From the NCBI GenBank assembly GCA_009602725.1, contig WELB01000015.1:396770-439929 (forward strand): DNA of 43,160 nucleotides. The letters run 5' to 3'. The notes beneath the pieces are model-generated. The model saw only the letters and a list, made by a program, of their open reading frames with translations. It did no database searches and was not told where the DNA came from. This document shows, piece after piece, positions 8,405 to 31,766 of this stretch. The stretch's first letter is position 1. Each line of letters opens with the position of its first letter. This stretch comes from Spirogloea muscicola. Its lineage: Eukaryota > Streptophyta > Zygnematophyceae > Spirogloeales > Spirogloeaceae. Made by a program: the position numbers and the translations under genes.

Positions 8405-9554
8405 GGGAAAGCCCCAACACAAAACTGCAACTTACTCAGCCTCTCAGAACGAGCAGAACACAATAGCACGTCTTGCTAAAGCGGCTGCGTGTGGCTTGTT
8501 GATGTGCGCTTTGCTTTGGAACAGCCCCTTGTCACAAAGAGAGGCGCTGCATCACGTAGCCTCCACCTCTGACTTCTGACCAGGGGCTGGAACCCTTCAG
8601 TGACAAGTACAAGACGCTGGCTCCAAAAGCAGTGCCGACAATTACCCTCCGCAGGCAAGCGCAGCCCGTTCTCCCCTTTGCCAGATCTCATGTCAGAGAC
8701 TTGGGCGCAAAAGCCGAAACAGGGAAAGCTTTTACTAATAGCCAGCCTCAAATGACATCCAAAGCAAGGCAAAAGAACGAACAGGAGCAAGTCAAATACT
8801 GGGCATTAAGCACGTCAATGACAGGTAGGTGTTCCAAGAAGGAAATTTACATGAATGACGAGGTGACCGGAGGTAATTGAGAGGCCATGGTCTGTTGAGG
8901 TGTTAGACACTTACAGTTCGTTTGCGACAACAGAGCATGATGGTCAGCCTGACCAATCTGCACTGCTGAACTTGATTGCTAGCCTCACTGTCTCTACACA
9001 AGCAGGCAGCGACAGATGCAAGGACACTTATGACATCGAAATCTCAGCTCCTTCCGCATTCGTCTCCCTTTGATACCATCATACCGATTTGACAAACTAT
9101 GCCACCCTCCCTGTAGCTGCTTCACCAGTTTCTCACACGCTTGTGCCACGCTTCGCGGCAGTCTGGCAATCTGTCCACTGTAGAGAAGCAACGGTATGTC
9201 AAGAAGTGACACGTGCCTACTTATTCCATGTGCAGGGCCTAGGAAGTAACTCCTCATTACGCATGAGTTCTTCACATACTGGAACTTCGAGCACCAAGTG
9301 CACTGACGCTTAAGTAACCAGAGTACTTGTACCTACCTAGATCCTCAGTGAGCAGTCATCCTAGCAATGCAACAATTGGATCACATAGGCTAAGTCAGAA
9401 AGCTTATCTTGAACCATTTCAGCAATATATACCAAGTTCTCAAGCCTGCGCTTTAGCTATTAGTTTCAGGATATAATTGGGGCCCTAAGGCCTTGGCAAT
9501 GTGAGAGAGAAATCAGCAGGATCTGAGCACAACTAGATCTTCGCGACTGCTCTC
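8405..9554. other. Spacer downstream of the 9.5-10.9 kb gene, nothing assignable
   Basis: I see no kinase-like exons here, although the two paralogous genes in the cluster continue into a kinase at the equivalent place. Short frames (for example 8994-9275 minus) carry no recognisable motif. Confidence 0.4.
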
Positions 9555-10864
9555 TTATTGAGTTACGCCAACCGGGACACGTCCAGCCCCCTGATCTGGG
9601 TATCCATAGATGGGCCTCTGATATTTCTGCACACGCTCCACAGCATATCCTCAACCATCTGAGACTGAGGCTCTGCACATAAAGCTTGAGTAACAGCTCT
9701 GACTATGCAACCCAAAGAAGCAGGCCCTGCTGAAGCTTCACCACAGTGCACTGCCAAGCTGGTCGCTGAGAAGCTGATGAGCAGATTGAACATGAACGTG
9801 AAGACTGCGGCGTCAATCTGGGCACTGAAGACCTCAATACACTCACATTTCATCGTTACAGCACAGAAGAGGCGTCATAATCATAGTATCGTATCTGACA
9901 AGTTACTGGAGCTGCAGGTAACATCTCACCTCATAGCATTCTGGCATAAGGCAGGGAATGAAGGCCAAGATAGGGAACACAAGGATTAGAATGATGATGG
10001 CCATGAAACCAACTGGAGACAGGTCTTCAAATTTGCAGCAGCCGACCTGCAGAGGACAGAAGGTCAATCTCCCGGAGAATGAGTGATAAGCTTCTGCAAA
10101 TATTCATTGGACGCCAACTTGTTCCCTTGTCATCTCATTGTTGACAATATCGGTGTCTGCCATACTGTCAGCGTAGATGACATGGAGCCGGAGCAGCAGG
10201 ACAACTCCTTTCTGCTCTTCCTGCTCTTGCACGAAGTCGCTGCTCGCCAATTGTCCACATACTATCCCGTGGAGGCTGTCGAGGCGAATGCTGCTCATCG
10301 ACAAGAGGTGCAGCAACCTTACCGGACATTGGTCCAGAACAATCACTGGGCTGCAGCAGCCGGCGCTACCGTCGTACCTCGGGATCGCCGATCTGATATG
10401 CCACGAGGACTTGGCCCTGCTGGGGGTTGACCAGCGGCGGCTTGATGCGCAGGCCCTGGATGGGCTGAGGCTGCTGCCCAGGGTATGGCTGCGGCGCAGC
10501 ATACTGCGGGTAGGGCGCTTGCGCCGCTTGCGGATAGGCGTATGGCTGCTGCAGACGAGGAAAACGGAGTGCGGTCTGAGTGATGGAGGGAGGGCCTAAG
10601 TGAGTAGTGGTCAAGTACGAGGGCAAGCTACACTGACAGGTGTGGCGCAGGTGGTGTACAGGTGTGCATCACCTGCGGCGGAGGGTACGCGCCCGGAGGC
10701 GGGTAGCCGCCTGGCGGCGGCGCGCCGTAGGCCTGCGGCGGTGGCGCGCCGTAGGCCTGCTGCGGCGGCGCGCCGTAGGCCTGCTGCGGCGGGTAGCCCT
10801 GCTGCGGCGGCGGCAGGCCGTCGGCCGGCGAGGGGTGGACGGCCTTGCCGTCGGCGGCGGCCAT
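9555..10864 (-). CDS. Small Pro/Tyr/Gln-rich single-span membrane protein (unfused paralog of the cluster kinases)
   Basis: Four exons join in phase 0: 10673-10864 (ATG), 10378-10548, 9930-10046 and 9555-9626 (TAA), giving 183 residues. Order of parts: a Pro-rich N-terminus with repeats around AYGAPPPQ (residues 21-64), a second Pro/Tyr/Gln region (YPQYAAPQPYPGQQPQ), a conserved block GLRIKPPLVNPQQGQVLVAY, then GCCKFEDLSP leading into one hydrophobic span (FMAIIILILVFPILAFIP). After it come a Cys-containing juxtamembrane motif (CLMPECYE) and a short tail KYQRPIYGYP ... VGVTQ-stop. There is no signal peptide. The middle and C-terminal parts align with the first three exons of the two kinase genes at 13.7-18.5 and 23.1-28 kb, but here a stop follows. 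The first intron is only in this copy and contains an inverted SINE-like repeat. Function unknown; a membrane anchor or scaffold is inferred. Confidence 0.8.
10565..10640 (-). repeat. SINE-like dispersed repeat, fragment inside an intron
   Basis: This is an inverted partial copy of the repeat seen at 42.1-42.8 kb (core GGAGGGCCTGAGTGG, then CAAGTACGAGGGCAAGC). It lies wholly within intron 1 (10549-10672) of the small membrane-protein gene. Confidence 0.6.
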
Positions 10865-10929
10865 GGGCGCCGCGTTCCGACGGGCCCCTTCTTCTTCTGA
10901 CGAGGAGAATGCGGCTGGCGGTGTGGAAA

Positions 10930-11035
10930 GAGAGAAAGAAGAAGAAGTGGCACTCCCAATGGGGGCAAGGGCTGCGAAAAGCCAGCCCAAAAAGAATTCA
11001 CAAAGGTTCAGAGGGGCCTAAGAGCGGTGAGCAGC
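10930..11035 (-). mobile_element. LINE 3' hairpin tail directly upstream of the membrane-protein gene
   Basis: On the minus strand: TTCTTTTTGGGCTGGCTTTT, then CGCAGCCCTTGCCCCCATTG and GGAGTGCC. It lies within about 70 bases of the start codon at 10864, in the same orientation, so it probably forms part of that gene's 5' leader or promoter. Confidence 0.65.
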
Positions 11036-11095
11036 TACAAAGGGGCCTGAGGATGCAATGGTAAAACAGGGGGAGGATGGATCACTCAATAAGTA

Positions 11096-11345
11096 CGAGT
11101 GAGGAGCCTCAGATCCGACAGACTAGCTGCCGGGAAGCTATCACCCTGACGAAAGCCAGAGCCCGCAGCGAGAGCACGGCCAGCTCGCAGATGCAGAGCG
11201 TGGGCCATGGAGAAAGTGCTCGCCCATTGAGAATAGGGGCTGGAACAACCAGCCCGAAAAAGAATGAACAGAGTACGAGAAGGGGGCCAGGGGAAGCGCT
11301 AAGTAACACCATGGACCGCTGCAGGGATACAGAGAGGCGCATCCG
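11096..11345 (-). mobile_element. 5'-truncated LINE copy (C-terminal coding end), interrupted by a second insertion
   Basis: The minus strand encodes MRLSVSLQRSM, then (after the 98-bp interruption) a frame resembling AHALHLRAGRALAAG and FPAASLSDLRLLTRTY-stop. This is the C-terminal end of the LINE protein found complete at 19.8-22.3 and 35.2-39.3 kb. The coding sequence is split at CCATGG by the tail at 11211-11308. Confidence 0.75.
11211..11308 (-). mobile_element. 98-bp LINE 3'-tail insertion with CCATGG target duplication
   Basis: This 98-bp piece is nearly identical to the 3' UTR of the LINE copy at 12037-12136 (TTACTTAGCGCTTCCCCTGG ... GGGCTGGTTGTTCCAGCCCC ... GGGCGAGC). It is flanked by CCATGG at 11205-11210 and 11309-11314. 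Removing it joins a continuous LINE coding sequence matching the uninterrupted copy near 34.86 kb. Confidence 0.8.
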
Positions 11346-11579
11346 ATATACCTGAGCCCACGAGCCCGCGGCGTTGAAGTCGGCTGGCTCGCCGCGTCTG
11401 CTGGACAGAAAGGGCGGCTGTTAAAGGGCGGCGGAAAGGCAGGGCAGAGCGGCCCTTCCGCGGGGGCGTGCTTCTCCGTTTCTTCTTGGGCTTCGGTGGC
11501 CTTGTACCTGACGAAGTGAGCTCGTTTCTTTCTTTGGGACATTGTCCATTATTTCTGGGCTGGCTTGCCAGCCCCTCTT

Positions 11580-11845
11580 CTCCGGGTCTCGGCGGAGTGC
11601 CTCCTTCCCTGCCTCGAGCTACTCGGACCTGATGTTGCTCACTCGCGGGTACTGAGCTTCCCTAGTATGTTGTCGTGATTGGTAGAGTAGAGACGAAAGG
11701 GCTCGCCCATTGAGGATAGGGGCTGGACAAGCCCCTATCCTCAAGAGGAGTCCTTCCTCGGCATCTCATTCTTCGGCTTTGGACATTGTCCATTCTTTTT
11801 GGGCTGGCTTTGCCAGCCTCTCTTTCTCTATGGGCGAGCCTTCTT
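11580..11845 (+). mobile_element. 5'-truncated LINE copy, same subfamily as the two long elements
   Basis: This starts in the C-terminal codons (FPASSYSDLMLLTRGY-stop), continues through a 3' UTR matching the 19.8-22.3 kb element (GAGCTTCCCTAGT, GGTAGAGT, CCTTCCTCGGCATCTCATTC) and ends in the hairpin GGGCTGGCTTTGCCAGCC with ATGGGCGAGCC. TCTTCTC flanks both ends as a possible target duplication. A 51-bp inverted hairpin insertion lies inside it. Confidence 0.8.
11693..11743 (-). mobile_element. 51-bp hairpin-only insertion
   Basis: This is an inverted copy of little more than the terminal hairpin (minus strand: GGGCTTGTCCAGCCCC, TATCCTCAATGGGCGAGCCC). It is flanked by AGAG at 11689-11692 and 11744-11747. 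The undisturbed sequence is seen in the 19.8-22.3 kb element at about 22186, where GGTAGAGT runs straight into GAGGAGTCC. Confidence 0.65.
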
Positions 11846-11849
11846 CTTC

Positions 11850-12136
11850 TCGTATCGAATGCGCCTGGCCGTCTCGCTGCAGGGGTCCATGGCCCGGGCG
11901 CTGCACCTTCGTGCCGGCAGAGCCCTCGCTGCTGCCTCTGGCGCTGGCCAGGGGACCCACTTCCAGGAGCCCAGCATCTCTGATCTGCGGCTGCTTAGCA
12001 GGGGTTACTGAGTGTCTCGTAGCAGCTTTGTTTCTGTTACTTAGCGCTTCCCCTGGCCCCCTTCTCGTACTCTGTTCATTCTTTTTCGGGCTGGTTGTTC
12101 CAGCCCCTATTCTCAATGGGCGAGCACTTTCTTCTT
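11850..12136 (+). mobile_element. 5'-truncated LINE copy, second subfamily
   Basis: The coding end reads MRLAVSLQGSMARALHLRAG then RALAAASGAGQGTHFQEP and SISDLRLLSRGY-stop (about 12011). The 3' UTR contains TTACTTAGCGCTTCCCCTGG and ends in GGGCTGGTTGTTCCAGCCCC with AATGGGCGAGC. The same UTR is the source type for the 98-bp insertion at 11211-11308. Confidence 0.75.
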
Positions 12137-12139
12137 CTT

Positions 12140-12700
12140 CTCCGGGCGCCGCCCCATCCGTCGGTCGCTTCCCGCATTGGGCGAACGCGCGGGCGGTCCT
12201 GGCCCGGGTCACGAGCAGGTCAACGCGCTTTCTTCTTCTTTCTCTTCTTCTTCTCTTGGCCTCTCCCAGCCACCAGTCAATCTGGCCGCGCTTGTTGTTT
12301 CTCTCCCCCGTCTCAGCCCGCACGCCTTTGGCTTTGGACATTGTCTATTCATTGAGCATTGAGCTGGCTCTGCCAGCCTCTGCCAGCCTCTCTTTGGGCG
12401 AGCTCTTTCTTGCCAGCCCCTCTTCTCTATGGTCGAGCACTTTCTTTCCTGCTGTACGTGAGGCGTCTGAGGGTTGTTGCCATCCCCCTGAATGCTCGTC
12501 GAGCTCAGCTGGTGGCAGAGGGGCAGCCAATGAGCGACAAAGGAGGAGGCCCACCAGCTCAGGCCTGACCCACCTGTATGACGTGTTCTTAGTGCTCTGC
12601 AAGTTCGGAGAAAACGGCAGGGATATAGAAGGATAGAAGAAGTGGCACTCCCAAATGGGGCAAGGGCTGCAAAAAGCCAGCCCAAAAGCAGGGATAGCAA
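12140..12700. mobile_element. Cluster of further hairpin-tail fragments, both orientations
   Basis: There are plus-strand tails near 12362 (GAGCTGGCTCTGCCAGCC ... GGGCGAGC) and 12410 (GCCAGCCCCTCTTCTCTATG). A minus-strand tail at about 12630-12690 (GCACTCCCAAATGGGGCAAG, AGCCAGCCCAAAAG) closely resembles the one at 10.93-11.0 kb. No gene is supportable here. Confidence 0.6.
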
Positions 12701-12786
12701 AGTTGCCAGGTATGAAGATGAGCTGCCTTATTTCCCTTGAGCTGCTTCATTCACCCGTGTCTTATAAGCTTAGAGGTACACGCAAT

Positions 12787-12787
<1 letters not shown>

Positions 12788-12856
<69 letters not shown>

Positions 12857-12969
12857 CTCTCTCTCTCTCTCTNNNNNNNNNNNNNNNNNNNNNNNNNNNN
12901 NNNNNNNNNNNNNNNNNNNNNNNNNNNNNNNNNNNNNNNNNNNNNNNNNNNNNNNNNNNNNNNNNNNNN

Positions 12970-13064
<95 letters not shown>
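12788..13064. repeat. CA/CT microsatellite containing an assembly gap
   Basis: A (CA)n run at 12788-12853 passes into (CT)n. Undetermined bases occupy 12873-12969, and (CT)n resumes to about 13064. It lies just 3' of the first kinase gene. A CT/CA-rich tract lies at the equivalent place 3' of the second. Confidence 0.95.
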
Positions 13065-13066
<2 letters not shown>

Positions 13067-13726
13067 TCATCTTCAAACCCCTTCACGACACTGCCATTCA
13101 ATCACGTGTGATTGTCTCTCAAAGTAATGCTTCACTATTACCTACATACGGTCAACAGCAAGTACAGGCCGTGACTACAAGCTGAAAGACAACATGCCTA
13201 TACACGCCTTTCCAGCAGACTCAAGCCCTTTCATGACAATCTTGAATCCCTTTGGCTCAAAGACGTGCTCTTCAGCATGTAGCACGATAACGCGCTTGGA
13301 CAGAACTGCAGATGCATCTGCCTTTTTGGTCCTGCTTTCTGTGTTCATGAAACAACGACGGCTATGCAATGGGCCACTTCCCAGGGGTTGAAGGTTGGCA
13401 ACTTCTTGTGAGCGCCGCTTGTTTAGCTACTATACAGTGTCTGCTTCATGTCTTTTTGACATACATTCAAATAGAATTGAGCACAGCAAATTGTGCATAC
13501 TCCTGAAAGATATAAGGCGACAGCAACGTGCAGTAGCTGTAGAGTATTATCCACAGGTCCTCGTCTGGGGCTGGACTGATGGGCAGAAGGGCCAATGCGG
13601 TCTTCTTATAATCATCAGGTCCAAGCTCTGCGGCAGAGGAAGCTTGTAGAAGCTTGTAGTTCGATGCCGGCTGAGTTGGTCCGAAACAACTTGCTTCAAT
13701 AGGCACCCAAGCCACCTTCTGGACCT

Positions 13727-16700
13727 TTAGAAGGTGCTATAGTCGCTTCCGTTGAGCATGTCTGCTGCCTTTAGCTCACTGGATGCCTGTCCTTCGAGCA
13801 TGTTAACCACCTGACAACAGAAGAGGTGTAAGGCTCTTCTGGAGATGCATCCTCATCACTGGGCACAACACAGCTTGGCATTCCAGACCTGGTATGCCTA
13901 GAAATCTTGCAATTAGATGGAAACAAGACACACAGGTAGCACATTTACTTCCGTGCTGTGTATCAAGAGAGCTGCTAACACAACGTCAATGTAGCTCGAA
14001 ATCATCATAGAGCTAGACATAATGGTGGCCTGTGACCATAAGTACGGGCTAGAGCAGACAGAAGGTGCCTCGTTATGAGCCGTCATCTGACCTGGCTCAT
14101 GGAAGGGCGTTTCCCAGGGGATGATTGAGCACAGTGTGTCGCAGTTATGAGCATACGCTGAACCTCCTCATGATTGTATTGGCCTCTGAGCCGCGGGTCA
14201 ACAAGATGCTTGTAATCACCGGATTGTATGTGCCGATTTGCCTATTGTGATCCCACAACATCATGGGAAATGTGAATCAGCACATACTGCATGTCAACTG
14301 ACTCTGAAACCAGCTGACCTTGACTTCTCAGGCCATTGATGGATAGTTATTCAGCCTTGACACCAGGCCAGGAAGATGGCAAGACGCACTTGTAGGACAT
14401 CCCTTAGCAAAGCTTTTGCTTTCGCAGCTCCCTGCTGAATGTTCTTGTCAGATGTGCCCTGTCATCCTTAAGTTTGCACTGCTGTGTCCATGAGAACCAG
14501 GCTCTGCAAGTGCAGAAGCCTCACATCCAGGTTCATAGCGTCCAATGGTTGGGCCCTAAGGACGTTACCGTCCTTACAAATGGAAGCCACGCACATACCA
14601 CAAGAAAACATAATTGCAAGCTTCCAGCAATGTTCCAGCAATGTTTCTCTGTCTGGAGAATTTCTGCGGATCATACTTGTGCTTACCCAATCCACAAGTC
14701 TGAAATTGCTGTCTCCAAGGGGTCGCCTACCAGTGACTAGCTCCAGTAACACCACGCCCAGGGAGTACACATCCACCTTATCAGTTGCCACCCCATATGA
14801 ATTATAGTGTGGGTCACAGTACCTGTAAAATGGTAGCGCTGGCTTTTCTTCGACATTATATCTTACAGGGAAATATGAATATTTGGCACAAGCCATTGTG
14901 GCAAGTGTTTTCATTCTTCACCTTTGACCAACTCTCAAATAGCATGTTGGATCCAGTCAAAGCATCAAGGGTGTATCTAAGCAGTTCCAGCATGAGAATG
15001 CATGCATTTGGACTCTCAAAGTTATGCAACAGGCCGGGCAGGATGTTGGCTCAAGCTCGAGCTTGGCTTCCGAGGTTTGAGGGAAGCCATTACCCACAAG
15101 TCCCTCCCACTCTGGTCTTGAGATGTGACTCCAGATGTATATCCAGCGGCCTGGCCAAACCGAAGTCAGCTACCTGAAAGGAGCAGAATAATACCGCTTC
15201 AGATTCAGGACAGCTGTGTAAGACATTGTAGTCCACTCAAACAAGTGCTCAAGGCAAGGCATCTAGCACCCTTGCTACGGGACAGCAGCAAAAATAATAA
15301 GGCAACAAGAGCATTATCAGGTAGTCAATGCAATGCATACATGAATGGAGTCAGCAGCACAGTTATATGAGCACGTGCGAACATCTGCAGGCTTATGCAC
15401 GTGATTGTCCTGCGTCGGTGGTGATAGGCATGATATTGTTGACTTCCACGACCGCACGGTAGCCGGCGTCGCGCATCAAGCCCGCCAGGGCATCGCGAAG
15501 GAGAATAACACACGGTCTCGTTCAATCCGAAGAGAAGAGTCGCGTGACTGGGCCAAGCAACGCGTGGTGGGCGCAGTGCCGCCATCCCGGGTCGAACCCG
15601 CGACCTGCCCCCACATCCCCAGACGACCCCACCGCCTGCGGCCCCTCGCCCCACCGCCAGGCGCCTCTGTCTGGACCCCAAATTGCAAATTGATACCAGT
15701 GATTTACCAGTGCTTCATTAGCGCTGTTGAGGAGAATATTTGCCGATTTGATGTCACGGTGAAGGATTTGCAGACGACCTGTATGATACAAGCTTTAAGC
15801 ATGTCACTTTCACGATTGCTCGAGTTTGAGTTGGACTTAATCTGTCAAGTGTCAACTAGCACGTGGGAGCCCATGCACATAATGTCTCCACGATACTTAC
15901 TTAGCACAGTGTGTGAAACTTACTCCTCAAAGCCTGTTCTGCTCAACCTTCAGGGTGAGCTGCTTGTATGACAGGTCTTACATATATGCAGCAAGCTTCA
16001 GTACAATTGAGGATGTTTGACGAAATCATCAACACTTACATCCGTGATGCAGGTAATCTATCCCCTTGGCAGTCCCTATTGCAGCTTTCAATCGCAAAGG
16101 CCATGCCATTGGTGGATGATTCAGCTGGCCTGCAGGACAAGAAGTCTGATGTTTCTCAGTCAGGGTATAAGCTCATTCTCTTGGTTTCTGTTATATGCTG
16201 CCTGGAAATACTTGCAAACTTTCAAGAATAAATGCCATCCATCTTTTGGCCTCTTATGTGAGTACATGTTATGGCTTTGACATGGCAGGGACGTACCATG
16301 AAGGTTGTCGTTCAATGTGCCGTTTGACAAGTACTCATACACCAGAAAGTGGTTGTCCCCAGCACTGCAGCAACCAAGTAGCTTCACCAGATGGCGGTGG
16401 TGCACGTCGCTTATGGTTCGAACCTCGGTTTCAAAATCTTTCTGACTCTGTCGACCACCGAGTAGCTTCTTCACAGCTACATACACACCACTCTGCACGA
16501 GAAGCACAGAAGTGAGTACCCTCATGGAAAGACGCAGCAAGATGTGGGGCCAACAATGGTCTCCAATCGCTCAAAATGTGGTCATTACCATCACTCAATT
16601 CTTATATTATACTTCATATGAATATTTATGGTTTGTGATCCACTAATTCTGTACCTGTTAGATGCCTAACAATCAGAGAGCAGAATCGAGCACGCTGTTG

Positions 16701-18550
16701 TGAGCGCACGCGCATGCTGCATACAATACTGCTTTCTCTCTGAATGTAGGATTGCCAATTTTAGCAACTGATGTTTCAAGAGGGCCCATCAAACAGATGC
16801 TAGTCCTAACACGGCCGCTGCTGTACCCCCCCAATTTGTACATGTACATAGCGACCTGTCTCTCCAGTAGGGTTGACTGGCAAAGCTCTACCTGAAGCCG
16901 GCCTTATAGACATGTCCATAAGCTCCACCTCCAAGGTAGTCCTTGAATTTTCCAGTTGCCTCCTGAAGCTCGGAGTAGCTGAAGAGTGAAAAGGTTTTGC
17001 CGAAGTTCACATTCTCAGGCTTGGGTGATGGTGCGTTCGCACTAACACCAAAAGTAGGTGAAGGCTCCTGTCTGGAGACGTAGGGACGAGGGCCAAGGTC
17101 TGCAGGGGCTGCCACAAGTGCGTACAGCTAGAGTTCAGAATGTGACTTTGCTGGCCATGGCAATTGTCAGCTATTGCAGCGGCGCTTCAAAGCGGGGCTC
17201 TCATGTGCTGACAGACATGCATCGAAATGGTTGAGCCAACATGAGCCACTATAGTCTGCAGATCCCTTACGCCGTCTGTGTTCTGGGTCAATAACTCTGC
17301 TTACCCAGCACTGAAAAGTTAGCTTTTTGACCTTTGCTTGAGCAGTAACTGAAACTGGACAAGTTGTTCAACATCCGACAGGCTTTACATTTGCTGAGGT
17401 TACAGCTCTGACCCCCGCACAGCCTGGTGTAAGCATGTAAGGGCCCTTGTGTTTGTCATCTATCTTACTGTATAGCTGTTTAACAAGCTTCTCATGGCTT
17501 ACTTGGAAAAGAAGGCCATCTCCAAGAAGCTGGATAAGAGTAGACAGGCCTTTGGAATCTCTGCACAATGCACATTCTCCAGTGTGTTGCCTCAGCTACT
17601 TGCAAGGCTCTGCAGTCAAAGCTTGAGGGAGTACCTCCAGCAAGTCATCGTCAAGCTGACCCAAAATTTGCCTTGTTCTGCCTGTGTGTCCACCATATAG
17701 TAACACGAAGCAAGCCTGCTTCTGCTTTGCTTTAAGGCAAGCTTGATCACTGATTGGACACACGGCAGAACATGTGCATGGCATATGTTCAATCTTATAC
17801 GCATGTGAGCAAGCAACTCAGGGCAACTGAGTTCAGCAAAGAGGAGAACAAGTAGGTACATATGCATCTCCTTCATATAAGCCACATTGATTGGAACTTA
17901 CTTGATAGCATGATGGCATGAGACAAGGAATGAAGGCGCAAAAGGGAAAGACCAAGATGAGTACAACGATGGCGCTGAAACCACCTGGAGTCAGGTCTTC
18001 GAACATGCAGCAACCGGCCTGCGGATAGATGATAACGATCAGTACACCAGTTGTATGTTGCCGCGTATGTGCTACCCTCTGGTGGTGGAAGAGCACACAT
18101 AGCAGTAAGGTGCTGCCTTTGAGGACCTTTACTCTGTCAAGACACTGATCCAAAGCAGGCGGACCTGCTGGCCATCTCTACTTTTCTGTGACGACCCAGA
18201 AGAATGATAGACGGGTTGGAAGCTGGAGTTGCTTCATACATAAGGCATGGATGCATCATGCAATACATGTTGTACCCAACAGTATCCTAGCTTCAAGCTT
18301 GACAAGCCACCAGGGCGGCCGGCCCTCGCCTTACCTCAGCCTCACATATCTCGTACGAGACGATGATCTGCCCTGGCTGTTGGGGGACCCTTGGCAGCTT
18401 GATGCGCAGGCCCGGCATGGGCTGTACAGGTACTTGCCCCTGGAAAAGCTGAGGGGGCCCGCCGTATTGCTGGTAAGGAGCTTGCACTGGTTGGGCGAAA
18501 GGATAAGGGTGCTGAGCTGGGTATCCTTTCCTATAATCGTCAGCGGCCAT
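13727..18550 (-). pseudogene. Membrane-module receptor-like kinase, copy 1 (probably decaying)
   Basis: Eleven exons match the intact copy at 23-28 kb one for one: 18335-18550, 17902-18018, 17503-17560, 16892-17108, 16297-16492, 16040-16129, 15708-15778, 15094-15173, 14687-14822, 14092-14241 and 13727-13810. Visible parts are the Pro/Tyr/Gln N-terminus with [18 protein letters not shown], the span FSAIVVLILVFPFCAFIP, RFQRPVYSYP, LGGGAYGHVYK, VAVKKLL, HRDIKSANILL, DFGLARPLD and [20 protein letters not shown]. Two lesions are visible. Exon 4 lacks one base near 16903 (AAGGCCGG against AAGGGCCGG in copy 2), so it no longer joins exon 5 in frame with the standard acceptor. The last exon stops after 27 codons (SDYSTF-stop), while out-of-frame similarity to the copy 2 tail continues to about 13550. 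An acceptor two bases downstream (gcagAG/TGG) would restore the frame, so a shortened product is possible. Confidence 0.7.
15407..15698 (-). mobile_element. About 0.29-kb retroelement-derived insertion in intron 7 of kinase copy 1
   Basis: GTGATT occurs at both ends (15401-15406 and 15699-15704), and the intact paralog lacks this segment. The minus strand encodes a piece of a LINE endonuclease-region protein (LLRDALAGLMRDAGYRAVVE, VNNIMPI). This is related to, but clearly different from, the long elements here (LLRDGMQGVFIEAGFKVAVE). The other half is GC-rich and holds a tRNA-B-box-like GGGTTCGACCC near 15590. Confidence 0.6.
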
Positions 18551-18699
18551 CGAAGAAACGGTGGGGTCCTCTGCGCGCCGGCGATGGCGCCAACGGGGAG
18601 GCGAGACGGCTACTCGTGCAGCTCCTTGCGGCGGGTGCACAAGTAGACGCTTCCAGTAGAGGGCAATGACTGCCGCGGGGCTGGCAGCGGCGCGCGGAC

Positions 18700-19000
18700 T
18701 GGGAGGCGAGGAGCCGGGGAGATGAGCGCGGCTGCTGTATGAGGGAGAGGCGGTGCGCTGGTCGGGCCCATTCGGCGGGCGTCGCCTCGCCTCGCGGTCC
18801 GGTCAAGCGAAAGTCAGCCGGCCTTCCCTGCAGCGAGGCCTGCTATCCCGACGCTTGCTTCGTCGTGTCCATGTGTCAGGCTCAGCTCTTTGGCGTCGAG
18901 AGCAGCAGCTGCAAGAAATGAAGAAGAAAGACGCTTCCACGACGCTTCTTCAGTATAGCTTGTCAGATATGCATGTGCTTACTCGGGGATATTAGTGTCC
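18700..19000 (+). mobile_element. Divergent LINE C-terminal remnant
   Basis: The end of this stretch reads LLQYSLSDMHVLTRGY-stop (to about 18993), matching the FPAxSYSDLRLLxRGY-stop signature. Upstream similarity is weak. It lies just 5' of the kinase copy 1 start codon. Confidence 0.55.
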
Positions 19001-19039
19001 CCCTTAGCCAGCTCGTTACCCAGTTACCAGGACATTTGC

Positions 19040-19500
19040 AAGGCTAATATTGGCCTCCCTTTCAATTTCATGCGCACCGCGCGCCTTCTCTTCCATGAGA
19101 GGGCCGTGGCTGGGAGAGGCCAGCCCAGGAGAAAAGACTGAAGAAAGGTCGAGGGAGCCAACTGAAAGCGCTGAAGCTAGCACACATGGAATCAATCAGC
19201 GGAAAGAGAGGGAAGCGCTCAAGAAAGAAGAGCAAGCTCAAGGCGCTTGCTCAGGTGTGCCAAAATGTGTTTCACAGTCTCGCTCAGAGCTTTTGCCATG
19301 CATTACCGGCAAGCCGCGTCTTGGCTGCTGCTCCTGGTCTTGACGTGGCGACACTCCTTCCGGCTGCGAGCTACTCCGACTTGCGGCTATTGATCATAGG
19401 TAGTACGCTTGCATGATGGCTTGGGATGTGCTTTCCGGCCTCTTCGGACCCTACCACTTCATTTCGATAAGAATTTGTAAATATGGGCTGGCCTTTCATA
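19040..19500 (+). mobile_element. LINE tail and C-terminal remnants
   Basis: There is an inverted tail at about 19100-19140 (GGCTGGGAGAGGCCAGCCC). A plus-strand coding end follows at about 19260-19404 (LPAASYSDLRLLIIGS-stop). A plus-strand tail begins near 19480 (ATGGGCTGGCCTTTCATAGCC). Confidence 0.6.
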
Positions 19501-19821
19501 GCCAACAATGCCTTTTTGTCAGGGATTTCTACGAAGAAGGCTAACTTGGCTTGATACTTTCATCTGCTTTGTCTGATTGTATTCGCTTGTGAATTGTAGC
19601 GAACGGGGCTACCGATCAATTCAAGGCTCTCAATCCAATGTCTGTACATTAATTGCGAATATCCAACAAGAGCCGAAGCCCACACTTAATGTGTACCTCA
19701 ATTGCCATTCGTGAGGTGGCTATCCTTCCCGTGGATCCTGGCAGACGAGCTTAAGTTTGCCGTCCGGTATGTGGACATCGCTCAGCGACCTCTACGTATT
19801 TGCCCGTAATTACTGAGCAGG

Positions 19822-19830
19822 TCAGCTTAG
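19822..19830 (+). repeat. Left target-site duplication of the 19.8-22.3 kb LINE
   Basis: TCAGCTTAG here is repeated at 22288-22296. The match can be extended by CA, which is ambiguous because the element itself starts with CACC. Confidence 0.75.
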
Positions 19831-22153
19831 CACCTCCGGGAAATCTTCTTGGAGGGGGACGCTGCCGACTTCGCGGCGCTCCACCAGGTGTGCCAGCTCC
19901 TCGCGCGCGACCTGGTCCCAGCCAGCATTCGGGACGTCCTGTGCGCCAGTACACTGCTGGCGCTCAGCAAGGCCGGCGGAGGGGTCCGGCCCATCGCCAT
20001 CGGGAAGGTACTCTACCGTCTGGTGGGGCGCGCACTCTGGCAACAGCACGCGGGGCAGGCCCAAGCACACCTGGCGCCCCAGCAGTTTGGCGCGGGGCTG
20101 CGGAGCGGCGGCGAGACGGTCGTGCACGGCGTACGGGCCACCCTGGACCTGCACCCCGAGTGGGTGGCTATGGCAGTCGATGTCCGCAATGCTTTCAATA
20201 GCGTTGATCGGGACGTCATTGCGGAGGAGCTGAGAGAGGCCTTCCCCAGCCTTCTACCCTTCTTCAGGCTGGGGTACGGTCGGCCAAGTGACCTGCTGTG
20301 GCGGACGGAGGGGGGAGCGGTGGAGACCCTCCACTCCACCAGGGGTGCACGTCAAGGGGATCCACTCGCTGGATTCTACTACGCGCTGGCACACCATCGC
20401 GCGCTCCAGGCAACGGTCGCGGCTCACCCTGGCGTGCTGGTGCCGACGTACGCAGATGATACCACTCTGGTGGGACCGCCTGCAGACGTCGTGGCAGCCT
20501 TTGCTACCCTCCAGGTGCAGCTGGGCGCGATCGGCCTGGACATCAGGGCGGACAAGTGCTGTGCCTGGTCCCCGGCAGGTCCCCTGCCAGCCCACCTGGG
20601 CCTGCCCGTGGGCTGCCAGACACCGGCCGAGGGCCTCACTCTCCTCGGCGTCCCCCTGGGCGCACCTGCCTTCGTGGCGGAGCAGCTGCAGGGGCGGCTG
20701 CAGGACCACCTCCGGCCGGCGGCCCGCCTGCACACGCTGAACGACATGCAGCTGGCAACCGCCATGCTGACCCGGTGCATCGCGCAGCGGCCCCATTACC
20801 TGGCCCGCACCATCCTTCCCTCACCGGCGGTGACGGCAGCGTATGAGGCCTTCGACACCGGCATTATGGCGGCCGCAGCCTCCCTCGTGCAGCACCCGGC
20901 GTTCCTCACCACCCAAGCTGCGCAGCTGCAGGCCAGCCTGCCGATCAGTCGTGGCGGCTTGGGATGCCGCTCAGTTGCCCGCGTCTGTGAGGCGGCCTTC
21001 CTGGGAAGCTGGGCGCAGGTGGCCGCCCCCATGTGTCAGAGGTTCCTCGTGCACGGACAACGCGCCCTGGAGCGGGCGGCAGCCGATGTAGAGGCAGGCC
21101 AACTCCCCTTCCAAGTCGCCCTCCGCACTGCCCGCGACAGGCTCCTGCAGGTCCACCCCAACATGTCCGAGCAGACTGTTCCTTTCCGGCACCTCGCCCA
21201 CACTCCAGACCTGCGTGCCCAGGCATGCTTCACGGCGTTGGTCGAGAAGGCGGCCTCTGACCAGGCGGTGGAGCTTCTCCCTCCGCCTGACGGTCGCGGG
21301 CGTGCTCGGCTTCTCTCCGCCTCTTCCCCTGGGGCGGCGGCGTGGCTCCAAGCGCTCCCACTCTATGCAGCACTTACCATGCCCGACGAGGTCTACCGGA
21401 CGGCGGTGCATCGGCTCTTGGGGCTCCTCCCTGCCTGCCTTACAGGTGTCACACAATGCGAGTGCGGCGCCCGGCAAGCCGACCCTGCGGAGCTGGCCGC
21501 GCACATGCTCCGTTGCGCCCACGGAGGCGAGCGGACCGCTTCCCATGATCTTTTGCGCGATGGTATGCAGGGGGTGTTCATTGAGGCGGGCTTCAAGGTG
21601 GCGGTGGAGTGCTCCTCAGTCATGCCCATCCTGCGGGGCGAGGACGGCCGGTCGCACACCCGACGCGCCGACCTGGTCGCTATCCCGCCCGGCGGCGGTC
21701 CCCGCATCATCGCTGATGTGGTGACAACGGACAGCTACGACTCCGGCAACCCCACCAGGTCGGCGTCGTTTGCAGGGCATGCATGTAGGCCTGGCAGCCC
21801 GGGCAAAAGAGAAAAAATGTGCCGATCACCCGGTCGGTGATGAGTTCGCGGCCCTGGCGATAGATGTTCACGGGGCCTTCGGCAGCCGCTGGCTGGATCT
21901 CCTCCAGCGGCTCGCTCGACAGGCTATTGATCGGCGGTCGGGTCCGCCCGGGGCGCTGCCCGGCTTCAATGCCGCCGGGTCGCTCGCCCAGGTCTTTCGC
22001 ATGCGCTTGGCGGTATCGTTCCAGCGATCCCTTGCCCACGCTGTCCACACGCGCGCAGGACGCGCTCTGGCCGCTGCCTCCGGGTCTCGGCGGAGTGCCT
22101 CCTTCCCTGCCTCGAGCTACTCGGACCTGATGTTGCTCACTCGCGGGTACTGA
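19831..22153 (+). pseudogene. LINE copy A polyprotein: reverse transcriptase, zinc knuckle, restriction-like endonuclease (frameshifted)
   Basis: The frame is open to 21840. Reverse transcriptase features include the palm segment AVDVRNAFNSVDRDVI, RGARQGDPLAGFYYALAHH and the catalytic YADDTTLVG. A Cys/His knuckle follows (CECGARQ ... AAHMLRC), then the endonuclease-like region HTRRADLVAIPP ... IIADVVTTDSYD. In most RLE elements the equivalent of RAD is K/RPD (family knowledge). An extra base near 21785 shifts the frame. The remainder (AARAKEKKCADHP, LAIDVHGAFGSRWLDLL, FPASSYSDLMLLTRGY-stop) lies in another frame to about 22153. The N-terminal zinc fingers are absent through 5' truncation. Confidence 0.85.
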
Positions 22154-22287
22154 GCTTCCCTAGTCTGGTGTCGTGATTGGTAGAGTCGAGGAGTCCTTCC
22201 TCGGCATCTCATTCTTCGGCTTTGGACATTGTCCATTCTTTTTGAGCTGGCTTTGCCAGCCCCTCTTTCTCTATGGGCGAGCCTTCA
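19831..22287 (+). mobile_element. RLE-type non-LTR retrotransposon, 5'-truncated copy A
   Basis: This 2.46-kb copy begins inside the reverse transcriptase region at the point equivalent to about 37690 in the longer minus-strand copy, to which it is nearly identical by eye. It ends with a 3' UTR and the hairpin GAGCTGGCTTTGCCAGCCCC, then ATGGGCGAGCC. Flanking duplications TCAGCTTAG mark its ends. It sits in the spacer between the two kinase genes. Confidence 0.9.
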
Positions 22288-22296
22288 TCAGCTTAG
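22288..22296 (+). repeat. Right target-site duplication of the 19.8-22.3 kb LINE
   Basis: TCAGCTTAG matches 19822-19830. Confidence 0.75.
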
Positions 22297-22354
22297 CAGC
22301 AGATGATACATCCGTGGATGTACTTGTCTTTGTTCATGCACGATGCGCGCCTTC

Positions 22355-22410
22355 CTTCTCTCTATGAACTCGGCCACTCAGGCCCTGCACCACTCACAAC
22401 ACGTGCTTCA
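22355..22410 (-). repeat. SINE-like repeat fragment
   Basis: The minus strand holds GGGCCTGAGTGGCCGAG, the core of the dispersed repeat at 42 kb. Only the 5' part is recognisable. Confidence 0.4.
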
Positions 22411-22660
22411 CCCCTCTCCCTCCCCCTCTCACACTCTCTCCCCCTCTCCCTCTCCCTCCTCTCCCTTTGACCCTCCTCCCCTTCCCCTCCCACTCCCCTT
22501 CCCTCCTCCCCCCGCCTCTCTCTCCTATCCTCCCCCCACACGCACACAAACTTACAGACACGCACACACACGCACACGCACGCACGCAATTCTCACCCAC
22601 ACTGCACGCTTGCACGCACACTCACGCATACATGCATATGCGCACCTTCATGCTCCTTTG
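22405..22660. repeat. Pyrimidine-rich CT/CA tract
   Basis: Low-complexity CCCTCTCC-type sequence passes into CACACGCAC-type repeats. It lies 3' of kinase copy 2, in the position equivalent to the CA/CT microsatellite 3' of copy 1. Moderately similar sequence follows both tracts, including GCTCTTCAGC ... ATGTAGCAC. Confidence 0.85.
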
Positions 22661-23142
22661 GCTAACTCTGCCAATCCTCAAGTTCAAATTATGTACTACT
22701 GAGAGTGACTGCTTCACTGATACCTACATGCGACGACCAACAAGCACACGTGTCTCAAGCTGACGAAGGACCACACCATGAAGGTACAATGCACTTCCAG
22801 CACACGTAGCCCTCCAAGATGGTAACTGTATGTTACTGTGGCTCAGTTCTGAGCTGTGCTCTTCAGCAGCATGTAGCACTCAAGGGGCATGGACAGGACT
22901 GCTGATGCATCTGCAGTTGGTCTAGGCTTGCTTTATCAATTTCATGAAAAGACATGGTGGTGTAGTGACTGCTTCCCGGGGCTAGACAGTTGCACATATC
23001 CTTGGATGCCGGCTCGTTAGCTGCTATGACAATTGGTGTCATGAGCAACATCTGCTTCGTATCCTTGTCACATGCACTCAATAGACCTTAGCGCAGCCAC
23101 ACTGTTCGTACTAAAGTAGTGCGACAATCTCCTCCCACAGCT

Positions 23143-26100
23143 TCAGAGCAAATCCGATGGGTCCTCCATCGGGTCCTCGACTAGGGCTGGCCTTGTGAGT
23201 AGGGGGGCTGGTTTGGTCCTGTTGTCATCGTTGAATCCAAGCTGTAAGGCAGACGAAGCAGAGGTATGAGGTTGTGTGCCGTTTGATTTGGTCCAAGACG
23301 ACCTGCTATCGTATCTAACTAAGCCACCTCCTGAACCTTCACTGATGTTGCTGTAGATGCTTCCCTTCAGCATGTCTTCCGCCTGAAGCTCTGTAAATGC
23401 CTGTCCTTCAAGCACGATAACAACCTGACACCAGAACAGGTGTTAGGCTTTTATGTAAATGCATCCTCATCTCTGTGCTCACCACGGTCTGGCATGCCAT
23501 AACACTATCGGAGTGATTCTGATAGTCACTTGGAAGTCAACAGCAAGAAGCACGTTTACTGTCTCACATGCTGTGAACAAGGAACCACATTGCAGCTCAA
23601 GTCGTGCTAGAGCAAGAATAAGTTGCAAATGGCCATGGCTTGGTGACGGTTAAGGACGGGCTAGAGCAGGTAGAAGGTCCCTCCTTATGGCAGTCGTCTG
23701 ACCTTGCTCATGGAAGGCCGGCTCACAGGAGAGAGCTGGGCACAGTGTGTAGCTAATATGAGCATGCGCCGAGCCTCCTCATGGTTGTATTGGCCTCTAA
23801 GCCGCGGATCAACAAGCTGATCGTAGTCACCAGATTTGACATACGCATTTGCCTGGATATCCACCAAAAAATCAACAAATAGGTATATCAGCCCATACTG
23901 AAGATCATCTGACACTACAAATCAGGTATACTTGACTACTCTCCCTAATAATACTTGATTGCTTAACCTTGACATCAGGCCAGGGCAGCAACATGATGCA
24001 TATGTATGACAGCTCTTAGAATCACTTCGCTTCGAAAAACTTCCTGCTAATCTGTTCACTTCGAACGGGCTCTGTCAACTGTACTTTTCTTGTGCCTTGA
24101 GAACCAGGCTTTGCAAGTTCAGAAGTCTACTTTCCAGACTGCATTGGTGTTATTGTCCTTCATCAACGTAAGCAAGGCACGAATCTTCAGAAGATATAAG
24201 TTTTCCAGCAATGCTACTTTGTTTGGAAATTACTGCACAAGTTGATGTGCTTACCCAATTCACGAGTCTGAAGTTACCATCTCCAAGGGGTCGCCTACCA
24301 GTGACTAGCTCCAGTATTACCACGCCCATGGAGTACACATCCAGCTTCTCAGTTGCCATCCCATTTGAGTTGTAGTGTGGGTCACAGTACCTGTAGTAAG
24401 GTAGGGCTAGCTATTCATCAGAAGAAGAGGTATTGTGAAGATTGAATGTTGGGCAACTGAGAGCGGCAAGTTGTTGCATTTGTTCACCTTTGAAGTACCC
24501 TTACCCCGTAAGCAGCATCCAAATCCAGTCAAAGCACACAAGTATGTATCGAAGCATCTCAGTTCGATGACTGCATGCATGTGGACTCTGAAGTAGAGCA
24601 ACAAGCTGGGCTACTGTCGATGATCAAGCTCCAGCTTAGCCTTTGTAGTTTGAGGTAAGCCGATACCCTCGAGTTCCTTCCACTCTGGTCTTGAGGTGAG
24701 ACTCCTGATCAATATCCAGCAGCCTCGCTAGACCAAAATCAGCTACCTGGGAGGAGGAAACACGATACACTGAGAAAGAAGGAATGCGTGTGTATTAAGA
24801 GATGGAGGGCCATATGTGGCCAAGTACAAAGGCAAGCACATTGACAAATGTACGTCACCTGCTGCTAAGCTGACCCGCTCAATAACCACGAGTCAGCACG
24901 TAGAGGTTTAGACAAGAAAGGTTGTCGACCTAGATGTGTTCTGATGACAATATCAACCGTCCAATCAAATTGTTGCTCAAGGCTAGGAATCTAGCAACCC
25001 TTGCTATAACATAGCAGCAATACTACGGGTTAGTTATGTAGGTAGGGCAAGGTTGTGATTGACAGCGTGTCAGCTGCTCAGGACTATATACATGTGCAAA
25101 CATCTGCAGATTAACAGTATGTCAGTAAGACAGTCACCAGTGCTTCATTGGCTCTGTCGAGGAGGATGTTTGACGATTTGATGTCTCTGTGAAGGACTTG
25201 CGGACGACCTGCAGAATCCATACAGGACATGCCATGACTTTTGCTCAAATTGCTAGCTAGCAAGTGGCAAGCCACATCTATGTCTCTGACATCATTCACT
25301 GGGCAGACTTCGCGCAGAGTACACCGCAAGAATCGCTCTGCTAACGTAGTAGGACTAGCTGCCTATATGGTAATTCTTACAAACATGCAGCATGCTTGAA
25401 TCAGGTTGAGGAGGTGTGCAAGAATCATCGACACTCACAGCCGTCGTGCAGATAGGCTAAGCCCTTGGCAGTCCCTATTGCAGCTTTCAATCGCAAAGGC
25501 CATGCCATCGGTGGATCATTCAGCTGGCCTGTAAGACAAGAATATTATGAATCTCAATTACGTCTCTCGGTTATGCTAACGAGCTCGTATTGCTGGTGTC
25601 TGTTAGACAAGGCTGTCTAGCAAAGCTTGCAGGCTTTCAGGACAACTATGACAATCATTTACTGCCTACATGTGAGTCCAGCTTAAAAACTTTGACATAG
25701 CAGCGACATACCATGAAGGTTGTCGTCCAAAGAGCCATTTGGCAAGTACTCATACACAAGGAGGTACTTGTTTGCAGCACTGCAGCACCCAAGTAATTTC
25801 ACGAGATGCCGGTGGTGTACATTGCTTATAATTCTCACCTCAGCTTCAAATTCTTTTAGAACCTGTCCACCATCAATGAGCATCTTCACAGCTACAAGTA
25901 GACCATTCTGCAAGAGAAGCACAGTATTAATGAGGCCAAATTTGTCTTCAAGGAGATAAATGTTGTCAAAAGCATGACTTTGACTTCTGTTGTCCTTCGT
26001 CGCTTGCATCAAGGTCTGTGATCTACTAGCCTTGTACCATTCAGATGACTGACAGTCACAGGGCACAGCACACGCTGCTCCAAATTGCACATGCATATCT

Positions 26101-27987
26101 ACTATCATAACTTCTGTCGGTTCAAAGATAGACTTTTGTCTGTTGAGAGGAGGGTGCAGCAAGCAGAATGCTAGTCCTGACATGGCAGCTGCTGTAACTC
26201 CCCATGTACAAGCAACCTGTCAATTGGCCACATCAACTTGCAAGGTTCTACCTGAAGCCGGCCCTTATAGACACGTCCATAAGACCCACCACCAAGGAAG
26301 TGCTTGAAATTCTCAGTTGCTTCCTCAAGCTCGGAGTAGCTGTACATTGAAAAGGATTCGAATACTCGTTTATCCTGTGGGGGCTGAAGTCCAGGTGAAG
26401 GTGGAACTGGTTCTCCATAAGTAGTAGGATACTGGTTGGTGGGTCCTGGGACATCGGCGCGAGGGCCAGATTCTTGAGGGGCTGCCACAAGTGCGTACAG
26501 CTAGAATTCAGAATATGACTTTGCTGGCCACGGTGATTACTCGCTATTGCAGCAGCGCTTTAAAGCAGCATTCTCAAGTGCTGACAGACATGCAACTCAA
26601 TTGACTGAGCCAACAGGAGCAGTAATGCTGCAGAGTTCACATGCTGTCTCAATTTCTGGTATTTTCAGGATTAATCTTAACGTTCTTGCTCTGCCCGAGT
26701 CATGTAACCATTAGCTGGGCTTGGACCGGTTGCTCGGAAACAGACAGGCTGTATACTAGCTAGGATCACAGCCCTAACCCTCCAACCTGGTATGCATAAA
26801 ATATACCTTATCATCTGTCTCAGCACAGATCTATTGGACGAGCTTCTCATTGGCTTACTTGGAATTGGAAAAGAAGGGCGTCTCCATGAAGCTGGATAAG
26901 CATAGACTGGCCTCTGATATTTCTGCACAACACAAAATCTCCATTGGGTAACCTCAGCTTTCTTGCACAAGGCCCATCATCAACGCTTCAGCCGTGTCTC
27001 CAGCAGCTTATCTAAAGCTGGCACGAATGCTTCTCTGTGCTGCCTGTGTCTGGGGGCCCAAACGTTTTGCTGTGCTGCCTGTGTGTCCCCCATATAGTAC
27101 GAAAAAGCAAGTCTGCATCTCATAGGCATACATGCCAATCTTGGTCACTATATGTACATTCAGCAGACTTGACATGTCTTGACCAATCTATATACTTTAC
27201 ATACGTCTGCAAGCACCTCAGGGGCAACGGAGTCGTTCAGAGAGATAAGGAGTTGTACAGGCATCTCAATCGTACAAGCCAGAGAGTTACCTGATAACAT
27301 GACGGCATGAGACAAGGAATGAAGGCACAAATGGGGAAGACCAGTATGAGTACAATGATGGCTATGAGACCACCTGTAGTCAGATCTTCGAACATGCAGC
27401 ATCCGGGCTGCAGAAAGAGAGAGAATGTCAGTATCCTAGTAATGCGTTGACGAATATGGGTCGTTCTGGAGAAGGAGCACACAGGCTCCAATTCTGCAGT
27501 CTTATACTGCTGCATTGAGGACCTTTCAAATGTCAACACACTGATCCACAGCTTAGACTTTAGAGAACAGTTTGCCTCCTCTCATAGGCAGGGTAACCTG
27601 CCGGCATTCTGACATTCTTCAGTGACAGCACAGAAGAATGATATACGGGAGTAATTTGTTCAATTGAGGAGGACATGGATGCAGCATGCAAAACAGATGG
27701 ATATCAAGAGATAGTCGTCGCTTGAAGAATGACAAGCCACCAGGGCGGCCAGGCCCTCGCCATACCTCAGCCTCACATATCTCGTACGCGACGATTATCT
27801 GCCCTGGCTGTTGGGGGACCGCTGGCAGCTTGATGCGCAGGCCCGGCACAGACTGCGCAGGCTGAGCGGGCACCTGCCCCTGGAACAGCTGAGGAGGCCC
27901 GCCGTACTGCTGGTAGGGTGCTTGCACAGGCTGCGCGTATGGGTAAGGGTGCTGGGCTCCGTGCCCTTTCCCGTCGGTGGCAGCCAT
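23143..27987 (-). CDS. Membrane-module receptor-like protein kinase, copy 2 (intact)
   Basis: Eleven exons join in phase with GT-AG junctions: 27766-27987 (ATG), 27291-27407, 26859-26922, 26252-26481, 25712-25907, 25439-25528, 25138-25208, 24667-24746, 24255-24390, 23703-23852 and 23143-23424 (TGA), giving 545 residues. Residues 1-74 are Pro/Tyr/Gln-rich with [18 protein letters not shown]. Residues about 87-105 form one hydrophobic span, followed by CLMPSCYQ and [11 protein letters not shown] Pro-rich linker (136-175) leads to [13 protein letters not shown] and a plant RLK kinase domain: glycine loop GGGSYG (198-203), VAVK lysine 219, HRD 313-315, DFG 333-335 and [20 protein letters not shown]. 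The usual GY-x-DPEY Glu is His (YCDPHY). No signal peptide or known ectodomain is present. The Ser/Thr-rich C-terminal tail is about 80 residues. The first three exons match the unfused gene at 9.6-10.9 kb. Membrane signalling is inferred; the ligand is unknown. Confidence 0.85.
24783..24910 (+). repeat. SINE-like dispersed repeat inside intron 7 of kinase copy 2
   Basis: GATGGAGGGCC, GGCCAAGTACAAAGGCAAGC, CTGCTAAGCTGACCCGCTCA and ACCACGAGTCAGCACGTAGA follow the same order as in the copies at 42.1-42.8 kb. It is antisense to the host gene. Confidence 0.7.
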
Positions 27988-28107: not shown

Positions 28108-28270
28108 AACGGAGTGTGTGTTGTGATGGAGGGCCTGAGTGGTCAAGTACGAAGGCAAGCACGTTAACAGATGTACAGCTCCTTAGCTGCTGAGCTGAGC
28201 CGCTCAGTAACCACGAGTAGAGGTCGCCAACTGATGCCCGAATACGGGACGACAAGCCCTTGAGGCACCA
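28108..28270 (+). repeat. SINE-like dispersed repeat upstream of kinase copy 2
   Basis: GGAGTGTGTGTTGTGATGG, GGGCCTGAGTGG, GGCAAGCACGTTAACAGATG, CCGCTCAGTAACCACGAGT and GATGCCCGAATACGGGACG occur in the order seen in the 42-kb copies. It lies about 120 bases upstream of the start codon and runs antisense to the gene. Confidence 0.7.
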
Positions 28271-28560: not shown

Positions 28561-28631
28561 GGCGGACCGGCTGTCCTCGCGCATCCTGCCTCGCCTCTCT
28601 ATCCTCTCTGTCTGTCACTTCTGTCAGTTTC

Positions 28632-28690: not shown

Positions 28691-28699
28691 CTAGCTCCG

Positions 28700-31752: not shown

Positions 31753-31766
31753 GCCGCCTCGCCGCC

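Follow-up and report, generated by a model that had tools for sequence, protein, structure and literature searches.

A Putative Fusion of a Small Membrane Protein Module with a PERK-Type Receptor-Like Kinase in the Streptophyte Alga Spirogloea muscicola

Organization of the locus

The stretch of DNA analysed here (the window) comprises 43,160 nucleotides of contig WELB01000015.1 (C15; positions 396,770 to 439,929 of the forward strand, assembly GCA_009602725.1) of Spirogloea muscicola, a zygnematophyte for which a whole-genome triplication is reported in excerpts of a published study (PMC11547041). Three related genes lie on its minus strand (Table 1): S, which encodes a small membrane protein, and K1 and K2, in which exons resembling those of S (the module) precede exons of a receptor-like kinase (RLK), probably as a result of gene fusion. 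A preliminary description of this DNA had noted that S, K1 and K2 share one order of parts, and that a donor behind the module leads into a proline-rich linker and a kinase domain. The shared order, i.e. GLRIK, GCCxFEDL, a hydrophobic span, CLMPxCY and (K/R)(Y/F)QRP(V/I)Y, was found in all three genes, and the joint is present as described: in K2 the phase-1 donor CCAA/gtaagcc is followed by the acceptor cttgtggcag/CCCCT and the reading frame is maintained.

Table 1. Positions of the three genes and their parts in the window
Feature	Position	Strand	Remarks
K2, predicted module-kinase fusion gene	23143..27987	-	11 exons, 545 residues, clean spliced frame; open counterpart C144:224197-228914
K2 module exons 1-3	27987-27766, 27407-27291, 26922-26859	-	Phases in 0,0,0; out 1
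K2 intron 3, module/kinase joint	26482..26858	-	377 nucleotides, phase 1
K2 putative PERK-type half, exons 4-11	23143..26481	-	Proline-rich juxtamembrane segment, kinase, C-terminal tail; from Pfam kinase match and intron phases
K2 exons 8-9, activation segment and start of C-lobe	24746-24667, 24390-24255	-	DFG intact, PHY at APE position
K1, predicted second fusion gene	13727..18550	-	11 exons; exon 4 frameshifted in this assembly; open counterpart C144:230712-235210
K1 module exons 1-3	18550-18335, 18018-17902, 17560-17503	-	Exon 3 identical to C144 over 58 nucleotides
K1 end of exon 4, one-base deletion	16892..16910	-	Relative to K2 26252-26271 and to the C144 counterpart
S, unfused small membrane protein gene	9555..10864	-	183-residue open frame, GT-AG introns; C144 and C280 copies match
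S exons (four)	10864-10673, 10548-10378, 10046-9930, 9626-9555	-	All introns phase 0

Two kinase genes had been reported at the locus, and only one of them is intact in this assembly. K2 is free of internal stops and all ten of its introns are of the GT-AG type, but the loss of one base in exon 4 of K1 had been overlooked: the frame breaks in the N-lobe of the kinase and the K1 product ends at a stop after 207 residues. Exons 5-10 of K1 have exactly the lengths of those of K2 (196, 90, 71, 80, 136 and 150 bases) and are free of stops in the K2 frame, so the break is either a single event or an assembly error. Intron 7 of K1 (in the region of window positions 15412-15697) measures 534 nucleotides as opposed to 262 nucleotides in the counterpart on a second contig, C144; 92-99 bases at its edge match contigs C79 and C88 at 92-93%, which suggests that a mobile element was probably inserted. 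The neighbourhood picture was also incomplete, in that a second cluster of the genes on C144 and a copy of the region with S and no kinase on contig C280 had been missed.

Distribution of the module in the genome

When a 90-residue S query was searched against the whole genome (153.1 Mb, 471 contigs), the membrane exons of K1 and K2 were found at E values of 1.6e-14 and 1.9e-12, and the similarity of the modules is thus not a chance match. With the same query and all 22 candidates scored, 20 exon matches were obtained at E <= 1. They make up ten genes on five contigs: three on C15, three on C144 (the counterparts S', K1' and K2'), one on C280 (S280), two on C79 (U79a and U79b) and one on C88 (U88). 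Kinase exons lie behind the module in four of the ten (K1, K2, K1' and K2'). A tblastn search with K2 (E <= 0.01), in sequence that included N at 6,739 of the 26,001 bases fetched from C79 and 2,035 of the 26,001 fetched from C144, found no kinase exon near S, S', S280 or the three U genes. The start of S' falls inside an N gap on C144 and the first exon of U79b is likewise in N; the module alignment (A1) and the tree hold the other nine genes without U79b, while the span exon of U79b was kept in the exon comparisons, from which the last exons of U79a, U79b and U88 were left out.

Fused and unfused genes agree in the borders of the GLRIK and span exons and in the phase-0 introns. Over 77 columns the modules of the four fused copies are 62-66% identical to S, including the non-hydrophobic blocks GLRIK, GCC.FEDL and QRP.Y. 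The S and U proteins thus share module exons of the same borders and phases with the kinase genes; they differ in ending in a short tail, with no kinase found behind the module. Scanned against Pfam, the S and U proteins matched no family above its cut-off, and the module had no match in the PDB up to an E value of 1. A module profile gave no confirmed case among 29 pattern matches in viral contigs and one among 27 in a prokaryote genome collection, a 15-residue stretch in a bacterial contig that was taken as chance.

One gene or two

The order of the genes on C144 (K2', K1', S') is that on C15, and both C144 kinase genes are open, K1' with 473 and K2' with 545 residues; in K1' the GT donor after exon 5 is replaced by GC (C144:232958-232960), a possible non-canonical donor. 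The copies on the two contigs have diverged at synonymous sites (dS) by 0.12-0.21. The ratio of nonsynonymous to synonymous divergence (dN/dS, Nei-Gojobori method; rough values, as changes are few) is 0.08 for K2/K2' and 0.15 for K1/K1' in the module exons, and 0.18 and 0.21, respectively, in kinase exons 5-10. Judged by these ratios, module and kinase exons alike are under purifying selection between the contigs. Comparison of K1 with K2 gave dS values of 0.57-0.76 for the module and 0.49-0.58 for the kinase (four comparisons each), and this agreement suggests that both halves were duplicated together.

The donor of exon 3, the acceptor of exon 4 and phase 1 are conserved in all four fused genes. 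The joint intron is 371-394 nucleotides long in the four genes and 87-88% identical between contigs, like the other introns; that of K2 has 377 nucleotides on both contigs and 87.7% identity, within the range of the ten K2 introns (85.8-91.0%), while the eleven K2 exons are 91.5-96.7% identical. Exon 3 is 100% identical between K1 and K1' and 93.8% identical between K2 and K2'.

These data were weighed against two adjacent transcription units, i.e. a three-exon membrane gene followed by a kinase gene with its own start, in which case the fusion would be an artefact of reading. In favour of two units, the module stands without a detected kinase in six of ten places, and an unspliced exon 3 of K1 or K1' would run into a stop three codons past the donor, so that such a transcript could give a short module-only protein. 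K2 and K2', however, lack that stop, and their exon 3 stays open beyond the donor over roughly 30 codons or more. The two halves are also just 371-394 nucleotides apart, in the range of other introns and conserved no more than those, with phase and splice sites retained in all four copies. Upstream of the kinase lysine (VAVK), exons 4-5 contain no methionine in K1' and one in K2, 17 residues ahead of the glycine loop; a transcript that starts at exon 4 would therefore have no AUG for the whole kinase in K1'. Two separate units are thus improbable. In view of purifying selection, the conserved phase of the joint and the open C144 copies, it is by far likelier that module and kinase form one gene, as the preliminary description had proposed.

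Relationship of the kinase half to PERKs

The kinase of K2 matches the Pfam family PK_Tyr_Ser-Thr (PF07714) with an E value of 8.7e-41. Its best PDB chains are BAK1 (E 3.2e-73) and then SYMRK, and the best 60 of 2504 PDB matches are plant receptor-type and related cytoplasmic kinases together with IRAK4 and IRAK1. Of the features of RLK/Pelle kinases, an RLK/IRAK-type kinase domain was found in K2, and VAVK, (L/I)HRDIK and VADFG in all four aligned copies. The position of the APE motif is occupied by PHY in all four fused genes, whereas the remaining distinct segments with the same pattern in the fetched loci, 11 of 11, have PE or PD there; PHY is a family trait, not a sequencing slip.

Outside the cluster, genome sites similar to the K2 kinase have exon identities of 59% (C106), 58% (C304), 56% (C35) and 54% (C244), with 136 of 704 candidates scored. 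The C106 and C304 loci combine a kinase with a hydrophobic exon that has a Lys/Arg edge and with a long stretch rich in SPPPP, and can be regarded as a PERK-like gene, a name that rests on this layout. When the C106 exons were read from the DNA, guided by tblastn pieces, the introns between the juxtamembrane acceptor and the final kinase exon were found in phases 1,0,1,1,0,2,0,0, identical to K2 introns 3-10 in eight of eight cases. Seven of the eight lie at matching aligned residues, and these seven are independent of the one C106 splice site that was chosen by eye; the first lies in proline-rich sequence that cannot be aligned. Over 281 aligned residues the kinase is identical to that of the C106 gene at 57.3% in K2 and 54.1% in K1'. 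The C244 gene lacks an intron at three of seven alignable places, and LRR-like exons ahead of its kinase suggest an LRR-RLK. By intron phases and identity, the kinase half of K1 and K2 looks PERK-type.

The layout of PERKs is given as a proline-rich N-terminus without signal peptide, one span and a kinase in excerpts of a wheat survey (PMC9323123), which also report that the 30 wheat PERKs, the Arabidopsis AtPERKs and BnPERK1 are without a signal peptide and that five of the 30 wheat proteins lack the span as well. The earlier premise of a signal peptide in the known plant RLK classes is thus wrong for PERKs as described there, and the claim of a new RLK class is overstated, because PERKs already share the layout and the kinase agrees with that of the PERK-like gene in eight of eight phases and at 57% identity. 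Like PERKs, the fused proteins are predicted to combine a proline-rich N-terminus, one span and an RLK/Pelle kinase whose intron phases are those of the PERK-like gene in this genome. They differ from PERKs in that SPPP, the extensin-type Ser-Pro signature, was found neither within residues 1-211 of K2 nor within residues 1-205 of K1', in the homology of the N-terminal half to a separate small protein, and in the PHY at the APE position.

With kinase and layout so close to those of PERKs, K1 and K2 could be ordinary divergent PERK genes whose N-terminal half came to resemble S by convergence of proline-rich, membrane-spanning sequence. This is scarcely credible: the module shares exon borders, phases and 62-66% identity with S, and the similarity outside the span already contradicts convergence. 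The ectodomain of the PERK-like C106 gene, moreover, differs, and the span there has an edge rich in Lys and Arg.

Probable order of events

A tree built on 77 columns of nine modules (midpoint root, for drawing only) groups S and the kinase-gene modules with support of 99/98 against the C79 and C88 genes; the S modules form one branch (98/96) and the fused modules one clade (86/94). The membrane exons of fused and S-type genes differ by dS of 1.0-1.5 (12 comparisons), which is near saturation. The tree fits a single fusion that would have taken place after the split of S from the U genes and before the duplication that gave K1 and K2. The unfused S-type gene is still adjacent, as first noted, and, on this midpoint-rooted tree, is the nearest relative of the fused module. 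Joining of exons of a neighbouring duplicate with a kinase, the origin that was first suggested, agrees with the one-gene structure, the adjoining S relative and the tree; the part that does not hold is the new class.

We propose the following history. A duplicate of the adjacent S gene would have had its first exons joined once to those that encode the juxtamembrane segment and kinase of a PERK-type RLK gene, the joint being that gene's own phase-1 intron ahead of the juxtamembrane exon, so that module exons replaced the PERK front half. The fused gene would then have been duplicated in tandem into K1 and K2, the neighbourhood later copied to another contig, probably by the whole-genome triplication, and one further regional copy (C280) left without both kinases. 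Some kinase matches come in threes of equal score (C229/C8/C24 at 83.4 bits; C106/C208/C44 at 75.6 bits), as in a triplicated genome. On C280 the counterparts of window 8175-10926 (S) and 28114-29123 (upstream of K2) lie in line about 1 kb apart, and no K1 or K2 match was found between them (blastn E <= 1e-20; tblastn). The dS between K1 and K2 exceeds the divergence between contigs, which makes loss on C280 likelier than gain on the other contigs. With the K2-upstream counterpart only about 1 kb from it (C280:77951-79967), S280 may now be driven by former K2 sequence.

Taken as a whole, including a single-span kinase with its N-terminus outside, this explanation is given a probability of about 0.7. 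It is built on exon structure, the shared module, selection, intron phases and phylogeny; a single transcript and the topology, location and signalling role of the product are its predicted parts. Besides the stop behind exon 3 of K1 and K1', several points count against it. Other kinase sites match a single K2 exon about equally well, if over shorter stretches (C8; C35 at 57% over 54 residues; C33 at 55%; C61 at 54%). Residue-level alignment fails between the start of exon 4 and the PERK juxtamembrane exon, and it is here that the C106 splice site was picked by eye for frame. The K1 frameshift and the GC donor of K1' point to possible decay of K1 or to an assembly error. With its APE motif altered, the kinase could have little catalytic activity or none. 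Finally, tails rich in YPP or PYPQ, like this N-terminus, are often cytosolic, which argues against an N-terminus outside.

Membrane topology and possible function

Pro, Tyr and Gln make up 36% of the N-terminal region. Within the first 211 residues of K2, one stretch is hydrophobic enough for a membrane span (residues 88-106), with a Kyte-Doolittle mean of 3.04 as opposed to 0.83 for the next best. On its N-terminal side, 30 residues carry no Lys or Arg and five Asp or Glu, and the 30 after it four Lys or Arg and no Asp or Glu; the corresponding counts (Lys and Arg/Asp and Glu) are 0/5 and 3/1 in K1' and, more weakly, 1/4 and 3/3 in S. The positive-inside rule relates flanking charge to topology, and by this rule the charges in K2 favour an N-terminus outside and a cytosolic kinase. 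The product would then be a membrane kinase whose one span acts as the signal-anchor for its insertion, with about 85 Pro/Tyr/Gln-rich residues outside, and with a positively charged proline-rich juxtamembrane segment and the kinase in the cytosol. It may work in the manner of a PERK, a short segment on the wall or membrane side controlling a cytosolic Ser/Thr kinase. If targeting and partner contacts were taken over from the S protein, S and the fused kinases could meet in one membrane patch.

An alternative that keeps the fused gene takes the module as a LITAF-like monotopic hairpin with both ends cytosolic, so that the kinase would be tethered to endosomes or the plasma membrane and would be no surface receptor. 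The three window proteins match the second half of PF10601 (zf-LITAF-like) weakly (E 0.065-0.51, below the cut-off), as does one of three other relatives (E 0.69), and several prolines lie within the hydrophobic stretch. In LITAF itself a hydrophobic stretch of 22 residues separates Cys-rich regions and both ends face the cytosol (excerpts of PMC5095921), and its N-terminal region is proline-rich (excerpts of PMC5142333). The module resembles LITAF/SIMPLE proteins in about 20 hydrophobic residues among cysteines, the proline-rich N-terminus and the weak profile match, and differs in a score far under the cut-off (10.5-13.8 bits against 23.8, with any match at all in four of six proteins scanned), in unrecognisable zinc-binding flanks and, in the fused genes, in the attached kinase. 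The zinc-binding flank motifs of LITAF are spelled CxxC and HxCxxC, and the module alignment has no counterpart of either; the flanking charges, too, favour a span with the N-terminus outside. LITAF membership of the module was rejected because of the score below the cut-off, and the hairpin topology appears unlikely, although it is the most serious competitor of the N-outside span. The kinase should be cytosolic under the receptor and the LITAF-like topology alike.

Searched with PF10601, the genome yielded four exon matches, all below the threshold (best E 0.085). Among them, C12:716437-716556 and C95:251095-251214 encode a hydrophobic stretch followed by HHFCPAC (19.5 bits, below the cut-off). 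The C12/C95 gene probably encodes a true LITAF-type protein and is a better LITAF candidate than the module; at this sensitivity it appears to be no relative of the module, whose matches to its loci were no better than E 0.4. Nine modules compared with both strands of all four PF10601 loci gave a best E of 0.079, for a 17-residue hydrophobic stretch on C6 that was taken as chance.

We also consider, as a rather doubtful variant, that the fused kinase is tethered to the membrane without being a receptor: the S-derived module would bring it to patches of S, the PHY motif would suit a kinase with a fixed partner, and the frameshifted K1, reduced to the module, would act as a second S, a decoy or inhibitor.

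Novelty and significance

Acquisition of new front halves by RLK kinases is a recognised mode of RLK evolution in excerpts of two publications (PMC10868138, PMC11096116), the first of which, a review, counts 142 RLKs in S. muscicola. The layout of the fused proteins is itself already known, and K1 and K2 would be genes of PERK-type kinases in which the N-terminal and membrane half has been exchanged and the APE motif is altered. The apparent novelty lies in the exon-by-exon homology of this half to a free-standing family without a Pfam match above cut-off. The fusion appears in no title or abstract opening among the matches listed in the open literature, a scope outside which the survey of Gong and Han 2021 lies, so that this is no proof of novelty.

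The diversification of RLKs in streptophyte algae predates land plants, and how kinases gained new front halves can usually no longer be traced. Here one genome contains the product together with a relative of the kinase donor and the probable source of the front half. The unfused relative adjoins the product, and the joint intron can still be read, which makes the route of fusion directly testable. Algal genes that bear the label "Pro-rich RLK" may differ in origin.

Other features of the window

Two long reverse-transcriptase frames (PF00078) were found at window 19831-21840 (plus strand, E 6.1e-14), between K1 and K2, and at 36252-38537 (minus strand, E 8.7e-13); both have about 72% DNA identity to C144:243476-244540. 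An assembly gap of N at 12873-12969 lies inside a long CA/CT simple repeat. Window positions 11018-12138, 41461-41681 and 42613-42851 match fetched parts of C144, C280, C79 and C88 and are probably repeats. Exons for the start and end of a papain-type cysteine protease domain (PF00112) are present on the plus strand at 31671-32474 and 32586-33233.

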